Assembly (NCBI GenBank): GCA_021778845.1
Contig: JAJYBU010000015.1
Location: 1 to 64,000 of the forward strand
Direction: 5' to 3'
DNA length: 64,000 bases
DNA from: Acidobacteriota bacterium
Lineage (GTDB): Bacteria; Acidobacteriota; Terriglobia; Terriglobales; Acidobacteriaceae
Shown: positions 19,970-30,295 of the stretch, one piece after another
How positions within the stretch are numbered: position 1 is the stretch's first letter
How the letters are laid out: each line of letters opens with the position of its first letter
Translations under genes and position numbers: made by a program
The notes under the pieces: generated by a model
Seen by the model: the letters and a program-made list of their open reading frames with translations, nothing else
Told to the model about the DNA's origin: nothing
Databases searched by the model: none

Positions 19970-21355
19970 ATGAGCACCCAGATGCAAGAGATGACCCGCG
20001 TGGCTACACCGGAGATGCATGAGAAGTTTGGCCCGAAGTTTGTTACGGCTGTGCCCGGCCCGCGCGCGCAGGCGGTGGTAGCGGAAGATGATCTGTATAT
20101 TTCGCCGAGCTATACGCGTGGCTATCCGCTGGTGGTGAAGCGGGGCTATGGCTGCCGCATTGAGGATCCGGATGGAAATGAGTTTCTGGATTTCACGGCG
20201 GGGATTGCTGTGACATCAACGGGACACTGCCACCCGGAGGTGGTGAAGGCGGTGCAGGATCAGGCGGCGCAGTTGATGCACATGTCGGGCACGGATTTTT
20301 ATTATGACCTGATGCCGAAGGTGGCTGCGCGGCTGTCGGCGATAGCACCGATGAAGGGGCCGCACAAGATTTACTACGGCAACTCCGGCGCGGAGGCGGT
20401 GGAGTGCGCCATGAAGCTGGCGCGGTATCACACGGGACGGCAGAACATCATCAGCTTCCTGGGAAGCTTTCATGGACGCACGATGGGCGCGCTGTCGCTG
20501 ACCGCGTCGAAGGTGCAGCAGAAGCGGAGGTTCGCGCCGTTTGTGCCGGGCGTGACGCATGTGCGCTATCCGTATGCGTATCGCGGATGCAGCGGAGGAC
20601 CGCAGGAGCAGGAGGCGTTTGCGCTGGGCTGCGCGCGGTATATCGAGGAGAAGCTCTTCAAGACGCTGCTGGCGCCGGAAGAAGTTGCTGCGATCTTCGT
20701 GGAGCCGATCCAGGGCGAGGGCGGGTATGTCGTTGCTCCGGATATTTTTCTGCAGGAGATTCGGCGGATCTGCGATCGTCATGGAATTCTGATGGTGGTC
20801 GATGAGATTCAGTCGGGCGCGGGACGCACGGGGAAGTGGTGGGCGATTGAACACTCGGGCGTGCAGCCGGATATTGTTTGCATGGCGAAGGGTATTGCGT
20901 CGGGCATGCCGCTGGGCGTGTGTTTGGCGAAGGCCGATGTGATGGATTGGGTGCCGGGATCGCACGCGAGTACGTTCGGTGGCAACCCGATTTGCCTGGC
21001 GGCTGCGCTGGCGACGATCGACATCATTGAGCGCGAGGCGATGCCGAATGCGGCCAGGGTTGGAGCGGCTGCGCTGGAGCGGTTGAGCACCTGGGTGGAT
21101 AAGCATGAGATCGTTGGCGAGGTGCGCGGGCGCGGGCTGATGATTGGCGTGGAGATAGTGGAGAACAAGCAGACGCGCGCGATCGCTGGGGATCTGCGGG
21201 ACAAGATTGTCGATCTCGCGTTTGAGCGCGGGTTGCTGCTGCTGGGTTGCGGAGCGAACACGCTTCGGCTGTGCCCGCCGCTGGTCGTGACGCAGGAAGA
21301 GACGGATGTGGCGCTCGATCTGATCGAGGAGTGCATTGTGCAGGCGATGCGATAA
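19970..21355 (+). CDS. class III PLP aminotransferase (lysine 6- or 4-aminobutyrate type)
   Basis: 461 residues of the ornithine/GABA/lysine omega-aminotransferase family. Visible are [34 protein letters not shown], the cofactor Asp motif [13 protein letters not shown] and the PLP Lys at about 307 (CMAKGIASGMPLG), then HASTFGGNPICLAAAL. It transfers a terminal amino group to 2-oxoglutarate. The next gene, 42 bases on, is an ALDH7-type dehydrogenase acting on aminoadipate semialdehyde, so lysine 6-aminotransferase is the best contextual guess; GABA aminotransferase cannot be excluded. CAGGAG precedes the ATG. Confidence 0.87.
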   Translation: MSTQMQEMTRVATPEMHEKFGPKFVTAVPGPRAQAVVAEDDLYISPSYTRGYPLVVKRGYGCRIEDPDGNEFLDFTAGIAVTSTGHCHPEVVKAVQDQAAQLMHMSGTDFYYDLMPKVAARLSAIAPMKGPHKIYYGNSGAEAVECAMKLARYHTGRQNIISFLGSFHGRTMGALSLTASKVQQKRRFAPFVPGVTHVRYPYAYRGCSGGPQEQEAFALGCARYIEEKLFKTLLAPEEVAAIFVEPIQGEGGYVVAPDIFLQEIRRICDRHGILMVVDEIQSGAGRTGKWWAIEHSGVQPDIVCMAKGIASGMPLGVCLAKADVMDWVPGSHASTFGGNPICLAAALATIDIIEREAMPNAARVGAAALERLSTWVDKHEIVGEVRGRGLMIGVEIVENKQTRAIAGDLRDKIVDLAFERGLLLLGCGANTLRLCPPLVVTQEETDVALDLIEECIVQAMR

Positions 21356-21397
21356 ACAGCGCCGGGTGCGAGCGAAGGCAGTGGAAGGAGAAGGGAT

Positions 21398-22930
21398 ATG
21401 GCAATGAATGCGATTGGGCTGGAGCATGAGGTTCGCGAGCTGCTCACGCGGCTGGGTGTGCAGGAGAGCAGGTATACGGAGGGCGAGTTGGTGGTGCGCA
21501 CTCCGATCACAGGGCAGGTGATTGCGCATGTGGCGAAGACGTCCGGGCCAGCCGCGCAGTTGGCGATCGACGCTGCACGGCAGGCGTTTCTGGTGTGGCG
21601 AAATATTCCGGCTCCGCGGCGCGGTGAGTTGGTGCGCGCGCTTGGCGAAGAGCTGCGAGCGGAGGTTGAGGCTCTGGGACGGCTGGTCACGATTGAGACG
21701 GGAAAGCTGCTGACGGAGGGCTGCGGCGAGGTGCAGGAGATGATCGATATCTGCGGCTTCGCTGCGGGGCTCTCGCGGCAGTTGACGGGGCTGACGATTG
21801 CGTCGGAGCGTGCGCACCATCGCATGATGGAGACGTGGCATCCGCTGGGAGTGGTGGGCGTGATTTCGGCGTTCAACTTTCCGGTTGCGGTGTGGTCGTG
21901 GAATGCGGCGCTGGCGTTGGTGTGCGGCAATGCGGTGGTGTGGAAGCCGTCAGAGAAGGCTCCGCTGACGGCGCTTGCGACACAGGCGCTGTTTGAACGT
22001 GCGGCGGCAAAGGTCGGCGGAGTGCCTGCGGGACTTTGCGCTCTGCTGGTGGGCGATGCGCAGTTGGGTGAGTTGCTGGTGGATTCGCCGCAGGTCTCGC
22101 TGGTGTCGGCGACCGGTTCGACGACGATGGGACGGGCGGTTGGGCCGCGGCTGGCGAAGCGATTTGCGCGGTCGATTCTTGAGCTGGGTGGAAATAATGC
22201 AGCCATTGTGTGCCCAAGTGCGGACCTTGATCTGACGCTGCGGGGGATTGCATTTTCGGCGATGGGAACGGCGGGGCAGCGGTGTACGTCGCTGCGGCGA
22301 TTGATTGTGCATGAGTCGATCTACGACAACATGGTGACGCGATTGAAGCGAGTGTATCTGTCGGTTGGGGTGGGCGACCCGCGCGAGAGCGGAACGCTGG
22401 TGGGACCGCTGATTGATGCACGGTCGTTTGCTGCAATGCAGTCTGCTCTGGAGGAGGCGAGAGCTGTCGGAGCGACGGTTACCGGCGGAGAGCGTGTGGG
22501 AGTTGATGGTGCGGCAGAGGCATTCTACGTTCGGCCTGCTCTGGTGGAGATTGCAGAGCAGGCGGCGGTAGTAAAGCGCGAGACCTTTGCGCCCATTCTG
22601 TTTGTGCTGAAGTATCGCGAGATTGAGGAGGCGATTGCCTTGCAGAATGATGTTCCGCAGGGTTTATCGTCGTCGATTTTCACGCTGAATATGCGCGAGG
22701 CCGAGAGGTTTGTCTCGGCGTCTGGATCGGACTGCGGGATCGCCAACGTTAATATCGGGACGTCGGGCGCAGAGATCGGTGGAGCGTTTGGCGGCGAAAA
22801 GGAGACTGGTGGAGGGCGCGAGTCGGGATCGGATGCGTGGAAGCAATATATGCGGCGAGCCACGAATACCATTAATTATGGAACGGACCTCCCACTCGCG
22901 CAGGGAGTTAGTTTCGATATTGCGGAGTAG
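21398..22930 (+). CDS. ALDH7-type L-aminoadipate-semialdehyde / piperideine-6-carboxylate dehydrogenase
   Basis: 510 residues, full-length NAD(P)-dependent aldehyde dehydrogenase. FNFPVAVWSWNAALALVCGN and WKPSEKAP form the cofactor site, ELGGNNAAIV holds the general-base Glu, and GTAGQRCTSLRR the catalytic Cys at about 296. The C-terminal INYGTDLPLAQGVSFDI is diagnostic for the ALDH7 (antiquitin/AmaB) branch, which oxidises 2-aminoadipate 6-semialdehyde to 2-aminoadipate in lysine breakdown. AAGGAG precedes the start. It forms an operon with the preceding aminotransferase. Confidence 0.88.
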   Translation: MAMNAIGLEHEVRELLTRLGVQESRYTEGELVVRTPITGQVIAHVAKTSGPAAQLAIDAARQAFLVWRNIPAPRRGELVRALGEELRAEVEALGRLVTIETGKLLTEGCGEVQEMIDICGFAAGLSRQLTGLTIASERAHHRMMETWHPLGVVGVISAFNFPVAVWSWNAALALVCGNAVVWKPSEKAPLTALATQALFERAAAKVGGVPAGLCALLVGDAQLGELLVDSPQVSLVSATGSTTMGRAVGPRLAKRFARSILELGGNNAAIVCPSADLDLTLRGIAFSAMGTAGQRCTSLRRLIVHESIYDNMVTRLKRVYLSVGVGDPRESGTLVGPLIDARSFAAMQSALEEARAVGATVTGGERVGVDGAAEAFYVRPALVEIAEQAAVVKRETFAPILFVLKYREIEEAIALQNDVPQGLSSSIFTLNMREAERFVSASGSDCGIANVNIGTSGAEIGGAFGGEKETGGGRESGSDAWKQYMRRATNTINYGTDLPLAQGVSFDIAE

Positions 22931-22948: not shown

Positions 22949-22983
22949 GATAGAAACTATAAGTCACTGCAGTAGTTTCTATC
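22949..22983. promoter_or_regulatory. 11-bp perfect inverted repeat upstream of the arginine fusion gene
   Basis: GATAGAAACTA (22949-22959) and TAGTTTCTATC (22973-22983) with a 13-base centre, 18 bases after the dehydrogenase stop. No T-run follows, so an operator fits better than an intrinsic terminator. A related repeat lies at 23023-23051. Confidence 0.6.
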
Positions 22984-23022: not shown

Positions 23023-23051
23023 GATAGATAAAATAATCATGTATATCTATC
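23023..23051. promoter_or_regulatory. related GATAGATA / TATCTATC inverted repeat
   Basis: An 8-base perfect inverted repeat with a 13-base centre, the same spacer length as the repeat at 22949-22983. Its left arm begins 74 bases (about seven turns) after that of the first, and both arms share GATAGA. It lies in an A+T-rich stretch 77 bases before the fusion gene start. Confidence 0.6.
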
Positions 23052-23127
23052 CACTCAATTACGAATAATCATTCTTGTTGACGGCACTCCATCGGCACTG
23101 CGATGCTTCAGAGTAGATAGAGGCCGC

Positions 23128-25302
23128 ATGACCATGAATGCCATATTGCAGCATGAAGTTATCTCCAAAGTAGTTAATCCAAGCAGTGTAGAAAAGCTAT
23201 CGCTGCTCATGTGTCCTCCTACTTTGTACGAGGTGAGTTATGTCATTAATCCTTGGATGCAGGGGAATATGGGTCACGCATCCCGGCAGCGCGCGATGCG
23301 GCAGTGGGAGAGCTTGTATGAGGTGCTATCGGAATTAGCCGACGTGCAGTTAGTGCAGCCTATCGCTGGATCACCGGATATGGTGTTTACGGCAAATGCT
23401 GGTTTGGCGCGGAATGGTGTTGTGGCGATCAGCAGCTTTTACTATCCCGAGCGTCAAGGCGAGGAGCCACACTTTCGCGCCTGGTTTGAGAAGGCCGGGT
23501 ACAAGATTGTCGACCTTCCACGTGAGACGCCATTCGAGGGTGAGGGCGATGCGTTGTTCTCGGCGGATGGGTCGCGCTTGTGGGTTGGCTATGGGACGCG
23601 TACGGCGGAGTCAAGCCATGCTGCACTGAGTGGGTTGTGGGACGCCGAGGTGACGGGATTGCATCTGATCGATCCACGCTTCTATCACCTGGACACCTGC
23701 TTTGCTCCGCTGATGGATGGATCGTTGCTGTACTATCCGTCGGCGTTCGATGCGGCGTCAATCGAGAAGATTGAAGCGTACTATCCGGCGGAGATGCGCA
23801 TTGCCGTGGGCGAGAGTGATGCGCTGTCGTTCGCTTGCAATGCTGTGAATATCGGGAAGACGATAGTGCTCAACCTCATCAGTGCTGAGTTGGAACTGGA
23901 ACTCCGCAGACGTGGGTTCGAGGTTGTGCAGGTGGAGTTAGATGAGTTTTTGAAGGCTGGTGGCGCGGCAAAGTGCCTGGTGATGAAGTTGACACCGGAG
24001 TTGCATCGCGCGCCTCGGGAGGGTGACGAGATGGAGCGGAAAGAGAAGTCAGAGGCGGAGTTGATTGCGCTGGAAGAGCAGTACGGGGCGCACAACTATC
24101 ATCCGCTGGATGTAGTGATTGAGCGCGCGCAGGGTGCGTGGGTGACGGATGTTGCCGGACGACGCTATCTGGATTTTCTTGCGGCGTACTCTGCGGTGAA
24201 TCAGGGTCACTGCCATCCGGTGATTCTGAAGGCGATGGTCGAGCAGGCGCAGAAGGTTACGCTGACGTCGCGAGCATTTCGGAACGATCAACTGCCGCTG
24301 CTGCTGCGCGATCTACATGAGTTGACGGAGTTTGATCGAGCGCTGCCGATGAACTCCGGCGCGGAGGCGGTGGAGACGGCGTTGAAGGCGGCGAGAAAGT
24401 GGGGTGAGACCGTCAAGGGAATCGAGCGCGACCAGACAGAGATTATTACGTGCTCGAATAATTTTCACGGGCGAACGATTGCGATTGTCGGCTTCTCTAC
24501 GGATGCACAGTATCGTGCGGGCTTTGGGCCGTTTCCTGCCGGGTTCAAGCATGTACCGTTTGGTGATGCGGACGCGCTGCGTCGGACGATTACGCCGCAG
24601 ACGTGTGCGTTCCTGGTCGAGCCGATCCAGGGTGAGGCCGGCGTGATCGTTCCTCCGGAGGGATATCTGCGGGAGGTTGCGAAGATCTGCCGTGAGAACA
24701 ATGTGCTGCTGGTCGTGGACGAGATTCAGTCTGGGTTGGGGCGCACGGGAAAGCTGTTTGCGTACATGCATGATGGGATTACGCCGGATGTGGTGATCGT
24801 GGGCAAGGCGCTGTCGGGAGGGTTCTACCCAGTGTCGGCGGTACTAAGTTCGACCGAGGTGCTGGGCGTGTTTCAGCCGGGCGATCACGGCAGCACGTTC
24901 GGTGGAAACCCGCTGGCGTGTGCTGTGGCGAGAGCTGCGCTGCGGGTGATTGTGGAGGAGCAGCTTGCGGAGCGGTCTGCGGAGTTGGGAGTGTATGCCC
25001 TGGCAAGGCTCAAAGAAATGAGCAGCAGCAACGTTGTGGAGGTGCGCGGGCGCGGACTATGGCTGGCGATTGAGTTGAATGTGCCGGCGCGACCAATCTG
25101 CGAAGCGCTGCGCGACCGCGGCGTCCTGTGCAAGGAGACGCATGAGACGGTGATTCGCATTGCACCGCCGCTGATGATCAGCCGCGAGGACCTGGACTGG
25201 GGGCTCGCGCAGATTGAGCACGTGTTGGATGAGCGCCGCGTCGAGAACCTGGACGCTCACTCGACTAGAAGCGAAGCGGACGCTTTCGCTCCAGTGGCGT
25301 AG
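23128..25302 (+). CDS. fused arginine dihydrolase-like / ornithine aminotransferase protein
   Basis: 724 residues in one frame. Residues about 20-295 are an amidinotransferase-fold guanidine hydrolase. INPWM (N41), [10 protein letters not shown] (N90), FEGEGDAL (E137), HLDTCFAPL (H187) and [10 protein letters not shown] (C283) all sit at a constant +19 from the residues I recall for cyanobacterial arginine dihydrolase ArgZ (N22, N71, E118, H168, C264), which yields ornithine, ammonia and CO2. Residues about 315-700 are an ornithine aminotransferase: [31 protein letters not shown] and K560 in [12 protein letters not shown]. Together they would convert arginine to glutamate semialdehyde. A deiminase or dimethylarginine hydrolase is the alternative for the first half. 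AGAGG precedes the ATG; the 3' end overlaps the convergent lrp gene. Confidence 0.85.
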
Positions 25303-25717
25303 AGAGAACCATGCTCGTGGTTGGACTGCCGTAGGGAAGAAGCTTCTCGATGAGATCTTCGAGATCGGTCATGGAGGCGAGCACAACTTTGAGCAGGAAG
25401 GCGTCGTTGCCGGTGAGGTGGTGGCACTCCTGCACGGCGTCCAGCGTGGGAAGGAATTTGAGGAAGGGCTTGTAGCGGGTTCCGTCGCAGGTGAGGCGGA
25501 CGAAGGCGGTGATGGTGAGCCCGAGGGCCTGGAGATTGATGTCGGCGCGATAGCCGCGGATAATCTCAAGGCTTTCAAGGCGGCGCAAACGCTCGGCTGT
25601 TGCTGAGGGGGAGAGTCCGATGCGGCGTGCGAGTTCGGCAATGGCGAGCCGTGAGTCGGTGGTGAGCTCGCGCAGTAGCTTGCGGTCGATGGAGTCGATT
25701 CCAGTGTGTAGAAGCAT
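25265..25717 (-). CDS. Lrp/AsnC-family regulator
   Basis: 150 residues from the ATG at 25717, which has AAGGAG six bases upstream. The N-terminal helix-turn-helix is [20 protein letters not shown] then [20 protein letters not shown]. The C-terminal ligand-binding RAM domain contains [20 protein letters not shown] and the usual [17 protein letters not shown]. It is divergent from hutH and convergent with the arginine fusion gene, whose end it overlaps by 38 bases, so it probably senses an amino acid and controls the surrounding catabolic genes. An in-frame extension to 25879 is rejected for lack of homology. Confidence 0.92.
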
Positions 25718-25800
25718 GTGGTGCTCCTTGGATGCTGAGTGCCCGCGATTGAAGATCCAAGTCCCGGATGGATATGCAACCGTGGATTGCAATGATAATA

Positions 25801-25824
25801 GTTCATTTGAACGTTGAATCAACG
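25801..25824. promoter_or_regulatory. two abutting palindromes in the lrp-hutH spacer
   Basis: GTTCATTTGAAC (25801-25812) is a perfect 12-base palindrome. CGTTGAATCAACG (25812-25824) is a 13-base one sharing its first base. They lie 84 bases upstream of lrp and 67 upstream of hutH, the natural place for Lrp-type binding. Confidence 0.6.
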
Positions 25825-25890
25825 GCAGAGACTGGTGATAACCGCCGTATGGGTGTTCACGCGCGTAGTCCGGCTGCATAGGATTACAGC

Positions 25891-27417
25891 ATGATTGCTT
25901 TGGATGGTGCCTCGCTGAGGATCGAAGATGTGGTGGCTGTGGCCGACGGGCACACCACGGTGCGGATTAGTGCCAGCGCGCTCGAGCGGATGGAGCGGTC
26001 GAGGGAACGCGTCGAGGCTGCGATGTGTGGGACGAAGCCGGTGTATGCGCTGAATACGGGCGTGGGGCTGCTGGCGAATATCCGGCTGGAGGACGATGAG
26101 ATTGAGGCGATGCAGGTCAATCTGATCCGTTCGCACTGCTGTGGCGTGGGCGCGCCGTTGCCGGTGACGGTGGTGCGGGGGATGATGTTGATCCGGGCCA
26201 ACGTGCTGGCGAAGGGGCTGTCGGGGATTCGGGCTGTGGTGGCAGAACGGATCTGCGATCTGCTGAATCATGGAATTACGCCGGTGGTGCCGTCGCGTGG
26301 AAGCGTGGGCGCGAGTGGAGATCTTGCTCCGTTGGCGCATATGGCGCTGGTGCTGATCGGCGAGGGGCGCGCTGAGTATCGGGGTGAGGTAATGCGTGCG
26401 GCGGAGTGCATGGAGCGAGAGGGGATTGAGCCGCTCGTGCTCCTGGGGAAGGAGGGTATCTCGCTGCTGAATGGGACGCAGGCGATGCTCTCCATTGGAT
26501 GCCTGCAACTGACAGAGATGGAGAACCTGTTCTATGCGGCACAGACGACAGCGGCGTTGAGTATCGAGGCGTTACGTGGAACCGCTGCGGCGTTTGATGC
26601 TCGGCTGCATGCGGCACGGCCGCACGCCGGACAGGTGCTGAGCGCGAGCCATCTGCTGAGTCTGCTGGAGGGAAGTCCGATTCCGAGGACGCATGGTGAG
26701 GGCAGCAAGATTCAGGATGCCTACTGCCTGCGGTGTATTCCGCAGGTGCATGGAGCGGCCTGGGACACGCTGCAGTATGCGCGCGGGGTGTTTGAGATTG
26801 AGTTGAACAGTGCGACGGATAATCCGCTGGTGTTTGAGGATGCGATTGTGTCAGGGGGCAATTTTCATGGAGCTCCGCTGGCGCTGGAGCTGGATTATCT
26901 GTCGATCGCGTTGTGCCAGATCGCGGGGATCTCGGAGCGGCGGACGGAGCGGCTGATGAACCCGAGCTTGAACGAGGGGCTGCCTGCGTTTCTTGCGTCG
27001 CGGCCGGGAATTGAGTCGGGCATGATGATGGCGCAGGTGACGGCAGCGGCGCTGGTGGCGGAGATGCGCGTGCTGGCTTCGCCGGCGTCGACGGGATCGA
27101 TCCCGACAAGCGGCAACCAGGAAGATTTCGTCAGCATGGGAATGACGTCGGGGCTGAAGCTGGAGCAGGCGGTGGGTCTGGCGCGGATGGTGATTGCGAT
27201 CGAACTGCTGGCTGCGGCAAGAGCGATGGATCTTCGCGGCGATACGAGCACGGAGGCGTTGGAACGGGCGCGAGCGAGCTTTCGAGAGCGCATCCCTGCG
27301 TGGAAAGAAGATTGTGTGCTGTCGGTGTGGATGGAAGAGGCCACAAAGTTTTTGGAGGATGACGGATGGCGAGAGCTTGGGCTTGGGCGGCTGATGGTTG
27401 AGGAGGTAGTTCGATGA
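25891..27417 (+). CDS. hutH: histidine ammonia-lyase
   Basis: 508 residues, normal for HutH. It carries the MIO-forming Ala-Ser-Gly at about 141-143 in [14 protein letters not shown]. Other family landmarks are [42 protein letters not shown] and [13 protein letters not shown]. It removes ammonia from histidine to give urocanate. First gene of hutHUIF; its stop overlaps the hutU start. Confidence 0.96.
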
Positions 27418-29072
27418 TGGAAGGATATTCTCCGGTACGAGCGGCGCGCGGTGGGACAAGAACAGCGAAGGGATGGATTCAGGAGGCAGCCAAGCGGATG
27501 CTGATGAACAATCTCGATCCTGAGGTTGCGGAGAAGCCGGAGGAGTTGATCGTGTATGGAGGGCGGGGGAAGGCGGCGCGCAATTGGGAGTGCTATCACA
27601 CGATTGTGGAGACGCTGGACCGGCTGGAGAATGATCAGACACTGCTGGTGCAATCGGGCAAGGCGGTGGCGGTGCTCAATACGCATCGGCTGGCGCCGCG
27701 GGTGTTGATTGCGAACTCGAACCTGGTGCCGCACTGGGCAAACTGGGAGGAGTTTGATCGGCTGGATGCTGCGGGTTTGATGATGTACGGGCAGATGACG
27801 GCGGGCTCGTGGATTTATATCGGCACGCAGGGAATTTTGCAGGGGACGTATGAGACGTTTCGCGGTGCGGCGAAGAAGCACTTCAACGACACACTGGCGG
27901 GTACGATTATGGTGACGGCTGGACTGGGAGGGATGGGTGGGGCGCAGCCGTTGGCGGTGAAGCTCGCTGGTGGCGTGAGCATTTGCGTTGAGATTGATGC
28001 GTCGCGGATTGAGCGCAGGTTGGAGACGCGATATCTGGACAAGGCGACGCGCTCGCTGGATGAGGCAATTGCCTGGGCGCAGGCGGCGAAGAGGAATCGA
28101 GAGGCGGTGTCGATTGGTCTGCTGGGGAATGCGGCCGAGGTGCTGCCGAAGATGGTCGCGACCGGATTTATTCCCGACCTGGTCACGGACCAGACGAGCT
28201 CGCACGACCCGATGTGGGGATATCTGCCGCCAGCGGAGGCTGATGAAGATTTGAATGCGCTGCGGTCGTTGCAACCGAAGGAGTATGCGGTTCGCGTCCA
28301 GGCGGCAATGGCACAGCATGTGCGCTCGATTCTGGAGATGCAGCGGCGCGGCGCGGTGGCGTTCGACTATGGAAATAATCTGCGCACACAGGCGAAGATC
28401 GCTGGTGTGGATGATGCATTCTCGTATCCAGGATTTGTGCCGGCGTTCATTCGCGATTCGTTCTGTGAGGGGCGCGGGCCGTTTCGATGGGTTGCGCTGT
28501 CGGGCGATCCGGCCGATATTGCGGCGACCGATCAGGCGCTGCTGGAGCTGTTTCCGGAGGACAAGCGGCTGAAGGAGTGGCTGACGTTTGCGTCGAAGCA
28601 GATTGCGTTTCAGGGACTGCCGGCGCGCATTTGCTGGCTCGGTTATCGGGAACGTGATCGTGCCGGGTTGCTGTTTAACAGGATGGTGCGTGATGGTCGT
28701 TTGAGTGCGCCGATTGTGATTGGACGAGACCATCTGGATGCGGGATCGGTGGCGAGTCCGTACCGCGAGACGGAAGGGATGATGGATGGTTCCGATGCTG
28801 TTTCAGATTGGGCGCTGCTGAACTTTGCGACGGGCGTTGCGAGTGGGGCGGGCTGGATGAGCTTCCATCATGGCGGCGGTGTGGGCATGGGGTATAGTCA
28901 GCATGCGGGATTGGTTGCTGTCGCTGATGGAAGCGATGAGGCCGAGGAACGGCTGCGCATGTGCTTGACGAATGATCCGGCGATGGGCGTGGTTCGTCAT
29001 GCGGATGCGGGCTATGAATTGGCTAAAGAGACCGCTGCGAAACGTGGTCTGGACCTTCCGAGTGTTCGATGA
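27414..29072 (+). CDS. hutU: urocanate hydratase
   Basis: 552 residues, matching the usual 550-560. NAD-dependent enzyme converting urocanate to imidazolonepropionate. Family stretches include [69 protein letters not shown] and [17 protein letters not shown]. Starts on the ATG overlapping the hutH stop and ends overlapping hutI, so translation is coupled along the operon. Confidence 0.96.
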
Positions 29073-30295
29073 AGACAGACTTACTCATTACGGGCGTGGC
29101 GCAACTCGTCACCGCTGAAGGTGCGGAGGCGAAGCGCGGCCGCGCGATGAGTGCACTGAAGATTATTGATGATGCTGCGATGGCTGTGCTCGATGGGCAC
29201 ATTGCGTGGGTGGGAAGAGCGAGCGAGTGGACGGGAGAGGCGGCGGCCACGGTGGACGTTGGCGGGGCTGCGGTGGTGCCGGGATTGATTGATCCGCATA
29301 CGCATGCGGTGTGGGCGGGTGATCGGCTATCAGACTTCGAGGCGCGTGCGGCGGGAGCAACCTACGAGGAGATTCTGGCGGGTGGCGGCGGGATTAGGAG
29401 CACAGTGCGAGCGACCGCTGCGGCTACGCGCGAGGAGTTGGTTGCGCTTGCGAAGGTGCGAATCAATGCGCTGACGAGATCGGGCGCGACGACGATCGAG
29501 GTTAAGTCAGGATATGGGTTTTCGATGGCTGCCGAGATTGCAATGCTGGAGGCGATTGAACGACTGGCAGAGGATTCGGCCGCGCAGATTGTCGCTACAC
29601 TGCTGGTCCACATACCGCCGGCCGATGTGACGGAACGTCGCGAGTATGTCGAGCAGGTTTGCGGAGACTTGATTCCTGTGGTGGCGCGGCGTGGATTGGC
29701 ATCGGCGGTGGACGTATTTGTCGAGCGCGATGCCTGGCATGTTGATGAGGCGGAGGAGATTCTCGCGTGTGCGAAGCAACATGGGCTGGGGATCAAGCTG
29801 CATAGTGATCAGTTTCACAGTGTTGGCGGAGTTGAGTTGGGAGTGCGCCTGGGAGCGCTGAGCGTCGATCATCTGGAGGCCGCTGGAGAGACGCAGATTG
29901 CGCTGCTTGCGGGGAATACGACGGTTGCGACCATTCTTCCGGGGGTGTCGCTGCACCTGGGAATCCCGGCGGCGCCGGGACGGAAGCTGATCGATGCGGG
30001 CGCTGCGGTGGCTGTGGGTACGGACCTTAATCCTGGATCGAGTCCGCTGTATTCGAGCGCTGCTGCGTTGGCACTCGCGGTGCGGATGAATGGATTGACT
30101 GCACAGGAGGCGCTGGTTGCTGGAACGGTGAATGCAGCACGTGCGCTGGGGTTGAATGATCAAGGTCGACTGGAAGCTGGGTGTGCGGCGGATTTTCTCG
30201 TGCTCGACAGTGGAGACTGGCGGGACCTGGTTTATAGGATGGGGGCGAGCCCGGTCCGCGAGGTGTGGGTCGGTGGCAGGAAGGTGGGCGCGTGA
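29069..30295 (+). CDS. hutI: imidazolonepropionase
   Basis: 408-residue metal-dependent amidohydrolase opening the imidazolone ring to N-formimino-glutamate. Metal ligands are seen in [14 protein letters not shown] (HxH), with [12 protein letters not shown] and VDHLEAAGE supplying further His residues and [10 protein letters not shown] the conserved Asp. Overlaps both neighbours by four bases. Confidence 0.95.

Follow-up and report, generated by a model that had tools for sequence, protein, structure and literature searches.

A conserved fusion of an arginine dihydrolase-type domain with an ornithine aminotransferase in Granulicella-type Acidobacteria

The fused gene and its two domains

The window, meaning the whole 64-kb stretch of DNA analyzed here, carries a single ATG-started open reading frame of 724 amino acids that runs without an internal stop from 23128 to 25302 on the plus strand. 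The initial annotation had read this frame as a guanidine hydrolase joined to a complete ornithine aminotransferase (OAT), and both the ORF check and the profile matches bore this out. The features of the locus are as follows.

22949..22983, no strand: inverted repeat GATAGAAACTA-13-TAGTTTCTATC, in the intergenic region upstream of the fusion
23040..23053, plus: ARG-box-like site 1 (TGTATATCTATCCA), from the promoter line-up and the consensus in PMC4865122
23062..23075, plus: ARG-box-like site 2 (CGAATAATCATTCT), 22 bp from site 1, from the promoter line-up
23078..23107, plus: promoter-like element, -35-like TTGACG, 18-bp spacer and extended -10-like TGCGATGCT, suggested by conservation
23128..25302, plus: fused gene, arginine dihydrolase-type domain and OAT (ORF, NCBIfam profiles)
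23191..23997, plus: N-terminal arginine dihydrolase-type (guanidino-group hydrolase) domain, residues about 22-290 (NF052232, ArgZ PDB alignment)
23248..23976, plus: codons for N41 (23248), N90 (23395), E137 (23536), H187 (23686) and C283 (23974), from the ArgZ alignment
23998..24057, plus: species-variable linker, residues 291-310, with Met302 (24031) after a GGGAGGG stretch as a possible internal start
24058..25227, plus: C-terminal OAT domain, residues 311-700, with the presumed PLP lysine K560 (24805) (TIGR01885, 3ruy alignment)
25265..25879, minus: Lrp/AsnC-type regulator gene, convergent with the fusion (PF13404/PF01037)

The 3' ends of the regulator gene and the fusion gene overlap. Among the 12 upstream regions searched, an inverted repeat similar to that at 22949..22983 was present only in L010, and the repeat is therefore a local feature. 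An assembly artefact was judged unlikely, with the fusion also present in Granulicella sp. L46 (L066), G. mallensis X5P3 (L072), and the one-contig 6.2-Mb genome G002.

The N-terminal part matched the NCBIfam arginine dihydrolase profile NF052232 (Arg_dihydro) over residues 23-287 (1.8e-111, 371.6 bits), below the curated cut-off of 450. This cut-off was also missed by the standalone relatives that were scored, L041 and L094, and it appears to be tuned to cyanobacterial proteins. The dimethylargininase model NF045659 scored 243.5 bits (cut-off 300, not reached), Pfam PF19420 (DDAH_eukar) passed its cut-off, and the profile of bifunctional ArgZ/AgrE, NF052231, aligned over positions 3-282 of 696 only. 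The only PDB sequence matches of the N-part at E <= 0.001 were ArgZ (Sll1336) and AgrE (Alr4995).

The alignment to ArgZ revealed that N41, N90, E137, H187, and C283 correspond to N22, N71, E118, H168, and C264, confirming the constant +19 offset claimed in the initial annotation. The PDB titles describe ArgZ N71S with a covalent reaction intermediate (6juz) and C264S with substrate (6jv1). A set of 55 cyanobacterial rows (54 loci plus ArgZ; the truncated sequence L104 and L028 were left out) has 122 invariant columns; the window protein retains 104 of these, and its identity with ArgZ in the remaining columns of the same alignment is 28.6%. The same NNEHC set is carried by four distant DDAH-like proteins (L035, L036, L064, and L065); thus, the set is not fully diagnostic, and N71 of ArgZ is weakened as a strict dihydrolase marker. 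The Asn that had been proposed to separate dihydrolases from deiminases is present at the matching position, but it alone does not settle the function, since distant DDAH-like relatives share it. By analogy with the ArgZ mechanism, we assume that the asparagines at 41 and 90 let hydrolysis run past citrulline.

The whole protein was modeled from a 31-row alignment (mean pLDDT 77.3, pTM 0.51). In the superposition on ArgZ proposed in the initial annotation, the predicted N-domain matched the ArgZ fold in 6jv1, 6jv0, and 6juz at 1.0-1.1 Å over 264-267 columns, with 55% identity and a target TM of 0.95-0.96. An N-domain of the ArgZ type is thus borne out by sequence, residues, predicted fold, and tree. 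The OAT part of the model lies partly below pLDDT 60, and because the pTM is low, the relative placing of the two domains is unreadable and the inter-domain geometry was set aside as unusable.

The C-terminal part matched TIGR01885 (Orn_aminotrans, NCBIfam) over residues 311-700 (1.3e-158, 527.9 bits), above the cut-off of 378.4; NF003145 (ornithine aminotransferase) gave 583.8 bits, below its curated cut-off of 656, and Pfam Aminotran_3 also matched the fusion protein. The best PDB sequence match of this part was the Bacillus anthracis ornithine aminotransferase 3ruy, on which the predicted C-domain was superposed with a target TM of 0.88 and 56% identity. By eye, K560, Y324, Y354, and R449 sit in motifs common to 3ruy and the window OAT. 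Presumably, K560 is the PLP lysine, and Y324, Y354, and R449 are the substrate-binding Tyr and Arg residues, with roles taken from human OAT.

Occurrence and origin of the fusion

The genome survey that had been proposed as a further check found the same fusion in Granulicella-type genomes and in one genome of a second genus. Within the window's genus, which we infer from the named matches to be Granulicella, the orthologue was present in 11 of 28 genomes (the window's own included), as a fusion in 8 and as two neighboring genes in 3; one of the 8, L034, is partial and lies at a contig end with its first residues missing. Among 396 sampled genomes of the phylum, the second genus (g31) contributed one fusion (G336, L040) and one adjacent pair (G297, L039). 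Distant matches (E about 1e-5) in the same sample fell in long open frames of G067 (706) and G113 (740), and other fusions may exist among such matches. Across 19 genomes of g31, the genes were fused in 1 and adjacent in 2 (G297 and G458). When 300 genomes of the family were screened at E <= 1e-100 with three candidates scored per genome, six were fused (G000, G001, G002, G021, G022, and G336) and four adjacent (G003, G008, G297, and G458). A further candidate in G540 (open frame 823) was rejected; the part examined consisted of an OAT and a long upstream open frame with no hydrolase match. In several species, the fused proteins are 73-92% identical to that of the window.

Named loci were taken from the 80 matches listed of 578. 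All 55 cyanobacterial loci among them were fused to ornithine cyclodeaminase. Among the other 25 listed, 4 were fused to OAT (Granulicella sp. L46, G. mallensis X5P3, and two MAGs), 1 had an OAT adjacent, and 20 had no OAT above 50% identity in the flank examined. The OAT fusion in Granulicella-type genomes and in one second-genus genome, as against a cyclodeaminase partner in 55 of 55 cyanobacterial loci fetched, is new. Two genomes of another acidobacterial family (L062 and L063) carry a dihydrolase-cyclodeaminase fusion of the cyanobacterial type. A Rhodanobacteraceae record (Pseudomonadota; L094, among the matches listed) has a standalone ArgZ-type protein with 56% identity, for which horizontal transfer and mis-binning are both possible.

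Where the two genes are split, they overlap or abut. The candidate OAT start is an ATG 7 nt before the hydrolase stop in L039, a GTG overlapping the hydrolase stop in L076, and a GTG 4 nt after the first base of the hydrolase stop in L014-L016, with an additional ATG at 16 in L014. The fused L040 and the split L039 are sisters (support 100/100). Their junctions align with a length difference of 16 bp, which shifts the frame, and the L040 linker keeps the region that codes for the OAT start in L039. The linker varies among species.

In a 19-row tree of chosen sequences, with L076 on a long branch, a single fused clade was rejected (AU p 0.0001, log-likelihood 148 lower), and the minimum number of changes between fused and not fused was 2. 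The adjacent pair L076 branched first in the OAT-linked group, on a long branch, which is suggestive, though no proof, of adjacency preceding fusion. The larger tree behind the ArgZ-type assignment of the N-domain had 87 rows, with the partial L034, the duplicates L066-L068, and most cyanobacterial loci left out. Most probably, a tight two-gene operon gave rise to the fusion when the frame changed at its junction; the fused or split state has changed at least twice. The occurrence of close relatives in which both genes are separate, overlapping or abutting, and of fused forms that do not make up one clade, is a new finding. The sister pair that differs by 16 bp in junction length captures a gene fusion close to the act, and a pairing found both fused and as neighbors may show how a two-step enzyme arises.

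Promoter region and genomic context

All 12 promoters of fused or adjacent loci that were aligned, the window's included, contain a pair of palindrome-like sites spaced by 22 bp; TTGAC comes 2 nt later, with an extended -10-like TGC(C/G)AT(G/T)CT after it. The spacer between the -35 and -10 elements is one shorter in L012. The motif model was built from these 12 loci, several of which are closely related, and was compared with mononucleotide shuffles. L076, which lay outside the model-building set, scored 42.7, bringing the motif to 13 of the 13 OAT-linked loci examined. According to PMC4865122, the ARG-box consensus is TNTGAATWWWWATTCANW for E. coli and AWTGCATRWWYATGCAWT for streptomycetes, and E. 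coli sites are described in PMC6640053 as two 18-bp boxes 3 bp apart that overlap the -35 element at artJ and artP. The exact E. coli core, TGAATWWWWATTCA, is present in site 1 of L039 and L040. Compared by hand, the boxes of the window are degenerate, each with three mismatches to the E. coli core. The pair is nevertheless the top-scoring one in its 64 kb, with 23.0 of 28 on our own consensus score, and 0 of 5 mononucleotide shuffles reached 22.

A similar pair was found before argR. In all six argR regions fetched, from the 10 genomes with an ArgR match, the top pair (23-26; shuffles at most 20.5) starts within about 130 bp upstream of argR, and further arg genes were recognized by eye in three of these regions. 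It is a new finding that all 13 OAT-linked loci examined have an ARG-box-like pair next to a -35-like element and that this pair resembles the one before argR. Among 37 standalone active dihydrolase loci, 24 beat the best of 30 shuffles with the promoter motif and 13 did not; three of the 24 (L042, L045, and L071) did so with negative scores, and several loci represent the same species from two collections, such as L042 and L070, which gave opposite outcomes. Three of 21 His/Ser paralogues (described below) beat shuffles, with scores of -9 to -11 and no visible motif. None of the 14 cyanobacterial loci scored with this motif beat its shuffles.

ArgR itself was matched in 10 of 10 other genomes at E <= 1e-8, and none of the 11 genomes passed the TIGR01529 cut-off. 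The window's draft genome (G000, 89% complete) gave no ArgR match, presumably because of a gap in the draft. A relative's ORF taken by eye as argC also had no match in the window's genome, in a search run without a positive control. In G. mallensis, an ArgR-type gene lies directly behind the fusion (L072:7977-8495; 114.5 bits against a cut-off of 130.45). In G002 and G022, this post-fusion gene is a second ArgR match besides one elsewhere. Arginine would probably set expression of the fusion, through activation or repression, by means of ArgR acting on the two putative ARG boxes that immediately precede the -35 element.

The genes directly upstream (19970-22930 of the window) encode a class III aminotransferase and an L-piperidine-6-carboxylate dehydrogenase (796.9 bits, cut-off 730), which together probably serve lysine breakdown. 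Downstream (25265-30295), the Lrp/AsnC-type regulator gene is divergent from hutH, and hutH, hutU, and hutI are genes of histidine utilization. Because of these upstream and hut neighbors, the locus appears as a cluster of genes resembling those for arginine, lysine, and histidine breakdown. Granulicella sp. L46 has an identical gene order, assigned mostly by eye and, for the aminotransferase and the Lrp-type gene, also by profile.

We further compared arginase and OAT genes among 54 chosen genomes of the family, a contrast that shared ancestry confounds for both genes. Strong arginase-family matches (PF00491, E < 1e-60) were present in 0 of the 26 genomes with an active dihydrolase orthologue and in 8 of the 28 without one, which is a new observation; three of the 26 (G212, G289, and G384) had weak arginase-superfamily matches of about 1e-18 to 1e-20 that pass the Pfam cut-off. 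An OAT of at least 70% identity was found in 17 of the 26 and in 7 of the 28. Ornithine must go elsewhere in the nine dihydrolase genomes without such an OAT. G010, of the same genus, has an arginase match and a free OAT (76%) and no active dihydrolase. A P5C dehydrogenase exceeded the cut-off in all 10 genomes tested, the window's included (C54:59840-61369), and a proline dehydrogenase-family gene was present in 12 of 12.

Proposed pathway, alternatives, and related hydrolases

The explanation that best fits these results is a bifunctional arginine-catabolic enzyme, probably expressed under ArgR control and derived by fusion from an operon; we place the probability of this whole explanation at about 0.78. 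The N-domain, with Cys283 as the nucleophile and with His187, Glu137, Asn41, and Asn90, would remove the whole guanidino group of arginine, yielding ornithine, two ammonia, and CO2. The PLP-dependent OAT domain would then move the delta-amino group of ornithine to 2-oxoglutarate, giving glutamate and glutamate-5-semialdehyde/P5C, and the separately encoded P5C dehydrogenase would oxidize P5C to glutamate. We infer both activities and this direction of flux, and likewise the regulation and the order of events at the junction, from the sequences and their genomic setting. The route from arginine through ornithine to glutamate semialdehyde had been proposed in the initial annotation, and it fits the domains, the ARG-box-like promoter, the P5C dehydrogenase, and the lack of a strong arginase match.

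In the arginase-RocD pathway, arginine is converted to ornithine and then to glutamate semialdehyde by way of a metal arginase and urea. The overall route proposed here is the same, whereas the Cys hydrolase of the window is expected to release ammonia and CO2 directly. In this acidobacterial group, the fusion appears to take the place of arginase plus RocD. It also suggests that soil Acidobacteria have an arginine route without arginase. Its C-domain exceeds the cut-off of the RocD family (TIGR01885), to which the window protein adds an N-terminal hydrolase domain.

The arginine dihydrolase known from cyanobacteria forms one half of a protein whose other half is a cyclodeaminase (PMC8262935). 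The window protein resembles ArgZ (Sll1336) and AgrE (Alr4995; NF052231) in its N-terminal hydrolase, with 52-55% identity and, for the predicted model, about 1 Å for most entries, as well as in the five catalytic residues and in the order of a dihydrolase followed by an ornithine-consuming domain. It differs in the partner, as had been pointed out from the start: the cyclodeaminase of ArgZ/AgrE gives proline, whereas the PLP transaminase of the window would give glutamate semialdehyde. The window protein is not an AgrE because it has no cyclodeaminase domain, and the two are separate fusions in different phyla.

The hydrolase and rocD are already known as separate clustered genes from mycobacteria. 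PMC4569260 describes an arginine-induced cluster of a DDAH-annotated protein (Rv2323c), an OAT gene (rocD), and an adjacent regulator gene, with Rv2323c needed for the conversion of arginine to proline and glutamate and with rocD non-functional in Mycobacterium tuberculosis, though not in non-tuberculous mycobacteria. These are separate genes, in contrast to the fusion in the window, and Rv2323c is likened to its N-domain by annotation. No report of a dihydrolase-OAT fusion was found in the literature searched, which covered titles and abstract openings with most subscription journals outside its scope and is thus weak evidence of absence. The fusion is a real and conserved domain combination, new to that literature, with residue, predicted-structure, phylogenetic, and promoter support.

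Channelling of ornithine between the two domains, which the initial annotation had offered as a possibility, fared less well: it is possible, and it seems not to be required, as the existence of split relatives suggests, with a variable linker and a predicted structure that gives no usable inter-domain geometry. The fusion may instead secure co-expression only, with no channelling and no kinetic gain. We lean towards this view, which is compatible with the bifunctional arginine-catabolic enzyme proposed above; sister species have split, overlapping or abutting pairs, linkers vary, the fused or split state changes at least twice, and a 16-bp difference separates L039 from L040. Nevertheless, fusions 73-92% identical to that of the window occur in several species, and a search of six fused genomes with the OAT part gave no second OAT above 40% identity; fusion may therefore be of some benefit. 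With its different partner and its close split relatives, the fusion offers a natural set of matched enzymes in which to ask if there is any kinetic advantage in joining consecutive steps. A broader proposal is that many of these Acidobacteria use the dihydrolase, and not arginase, as their standard arginine-degrading enzyme, and that repeated, independent fusion events have linked it to whichever enzyme consumes ornithine (a cyclodeaminase in cyanobacteria and in a second acidobacterial family, a transaminase in the window) since channelling in the fused form keeps catabolic ornithine out of the biosynthetic pool and prevents a futile arginine cycle. We regard this as speculative and rather unlikely in its entirety.

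A second product of the gene besides the full fusion, namely a free OAT translated from the internal Met302, is unlikely. The ATG at 24031 follows GGGAGGGTGACGAG, and the same Met is present in L010; by eye, however, L011, L012, L013, L017, and L018 lack a Met at the corresponding linker position, although some have one elsewhere in the linker, and an internal start is therefore not general. Equally doubtful is a main role in an ornithine-ammonia cycle as proposed for cyanobacteria, with ornithine returned to biosynthesis and the OAT as a side activity. The 9 of 26 genomes that have the dihydrolase and lack an OAT of at least 70% identity would suit such a cycle, whereas the OAT is fused here and the neighbors resemble lysine and histidine breakdown genes. 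Also unlikely is an N-domain that acts as a deiminase or dimethylargininase and leaves citrulline as its end product, with the OAT using ornithine from elsewhere: the DDAH kinship (NF045659 under its cut-off, PF19420 over it) and the missed dihydrolase cut-off speak for it, but the nearest solved relatives by sequence and fold are ArgZ and AgrE, the dihydrolase model outscores the DDAH model (371.6 against 243.5), most dihydrolase-invariant columns are retained, and citrulline would presumably not feed the fused OAT.

Other hydrolase loci were observed beside the fusion. A standalone dihydrolase paralogue is present in the window's own genome (G000:C68:48753-49577; L002:1453-2385, minus strand), with 48-55% identity across the paralogue rows (L019-L033, L038, and L058-L061, plus the own-genome copy in L002). 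It was matched in 24 of 28 genomes of the window's genus and also in genomes of genus g28. The position of ArgZ N71 is His in 21 of 21 of these rows, that of C264 is Ser in 19, Ala in 1, and a gap in 1 of the 21, and that of Tyr136 is His in 20 of 20. The paralogue may be a conserved pseudoenzyme, or it may have gained a new enzymatic function. In G031 (L035:87-2319), whose genome also has arginase matches, an OAT gene (71%) is followed directly by a distant DDAH-like protein with the NNEHC set kept, a second pairing of hydrolase and OAT genes.
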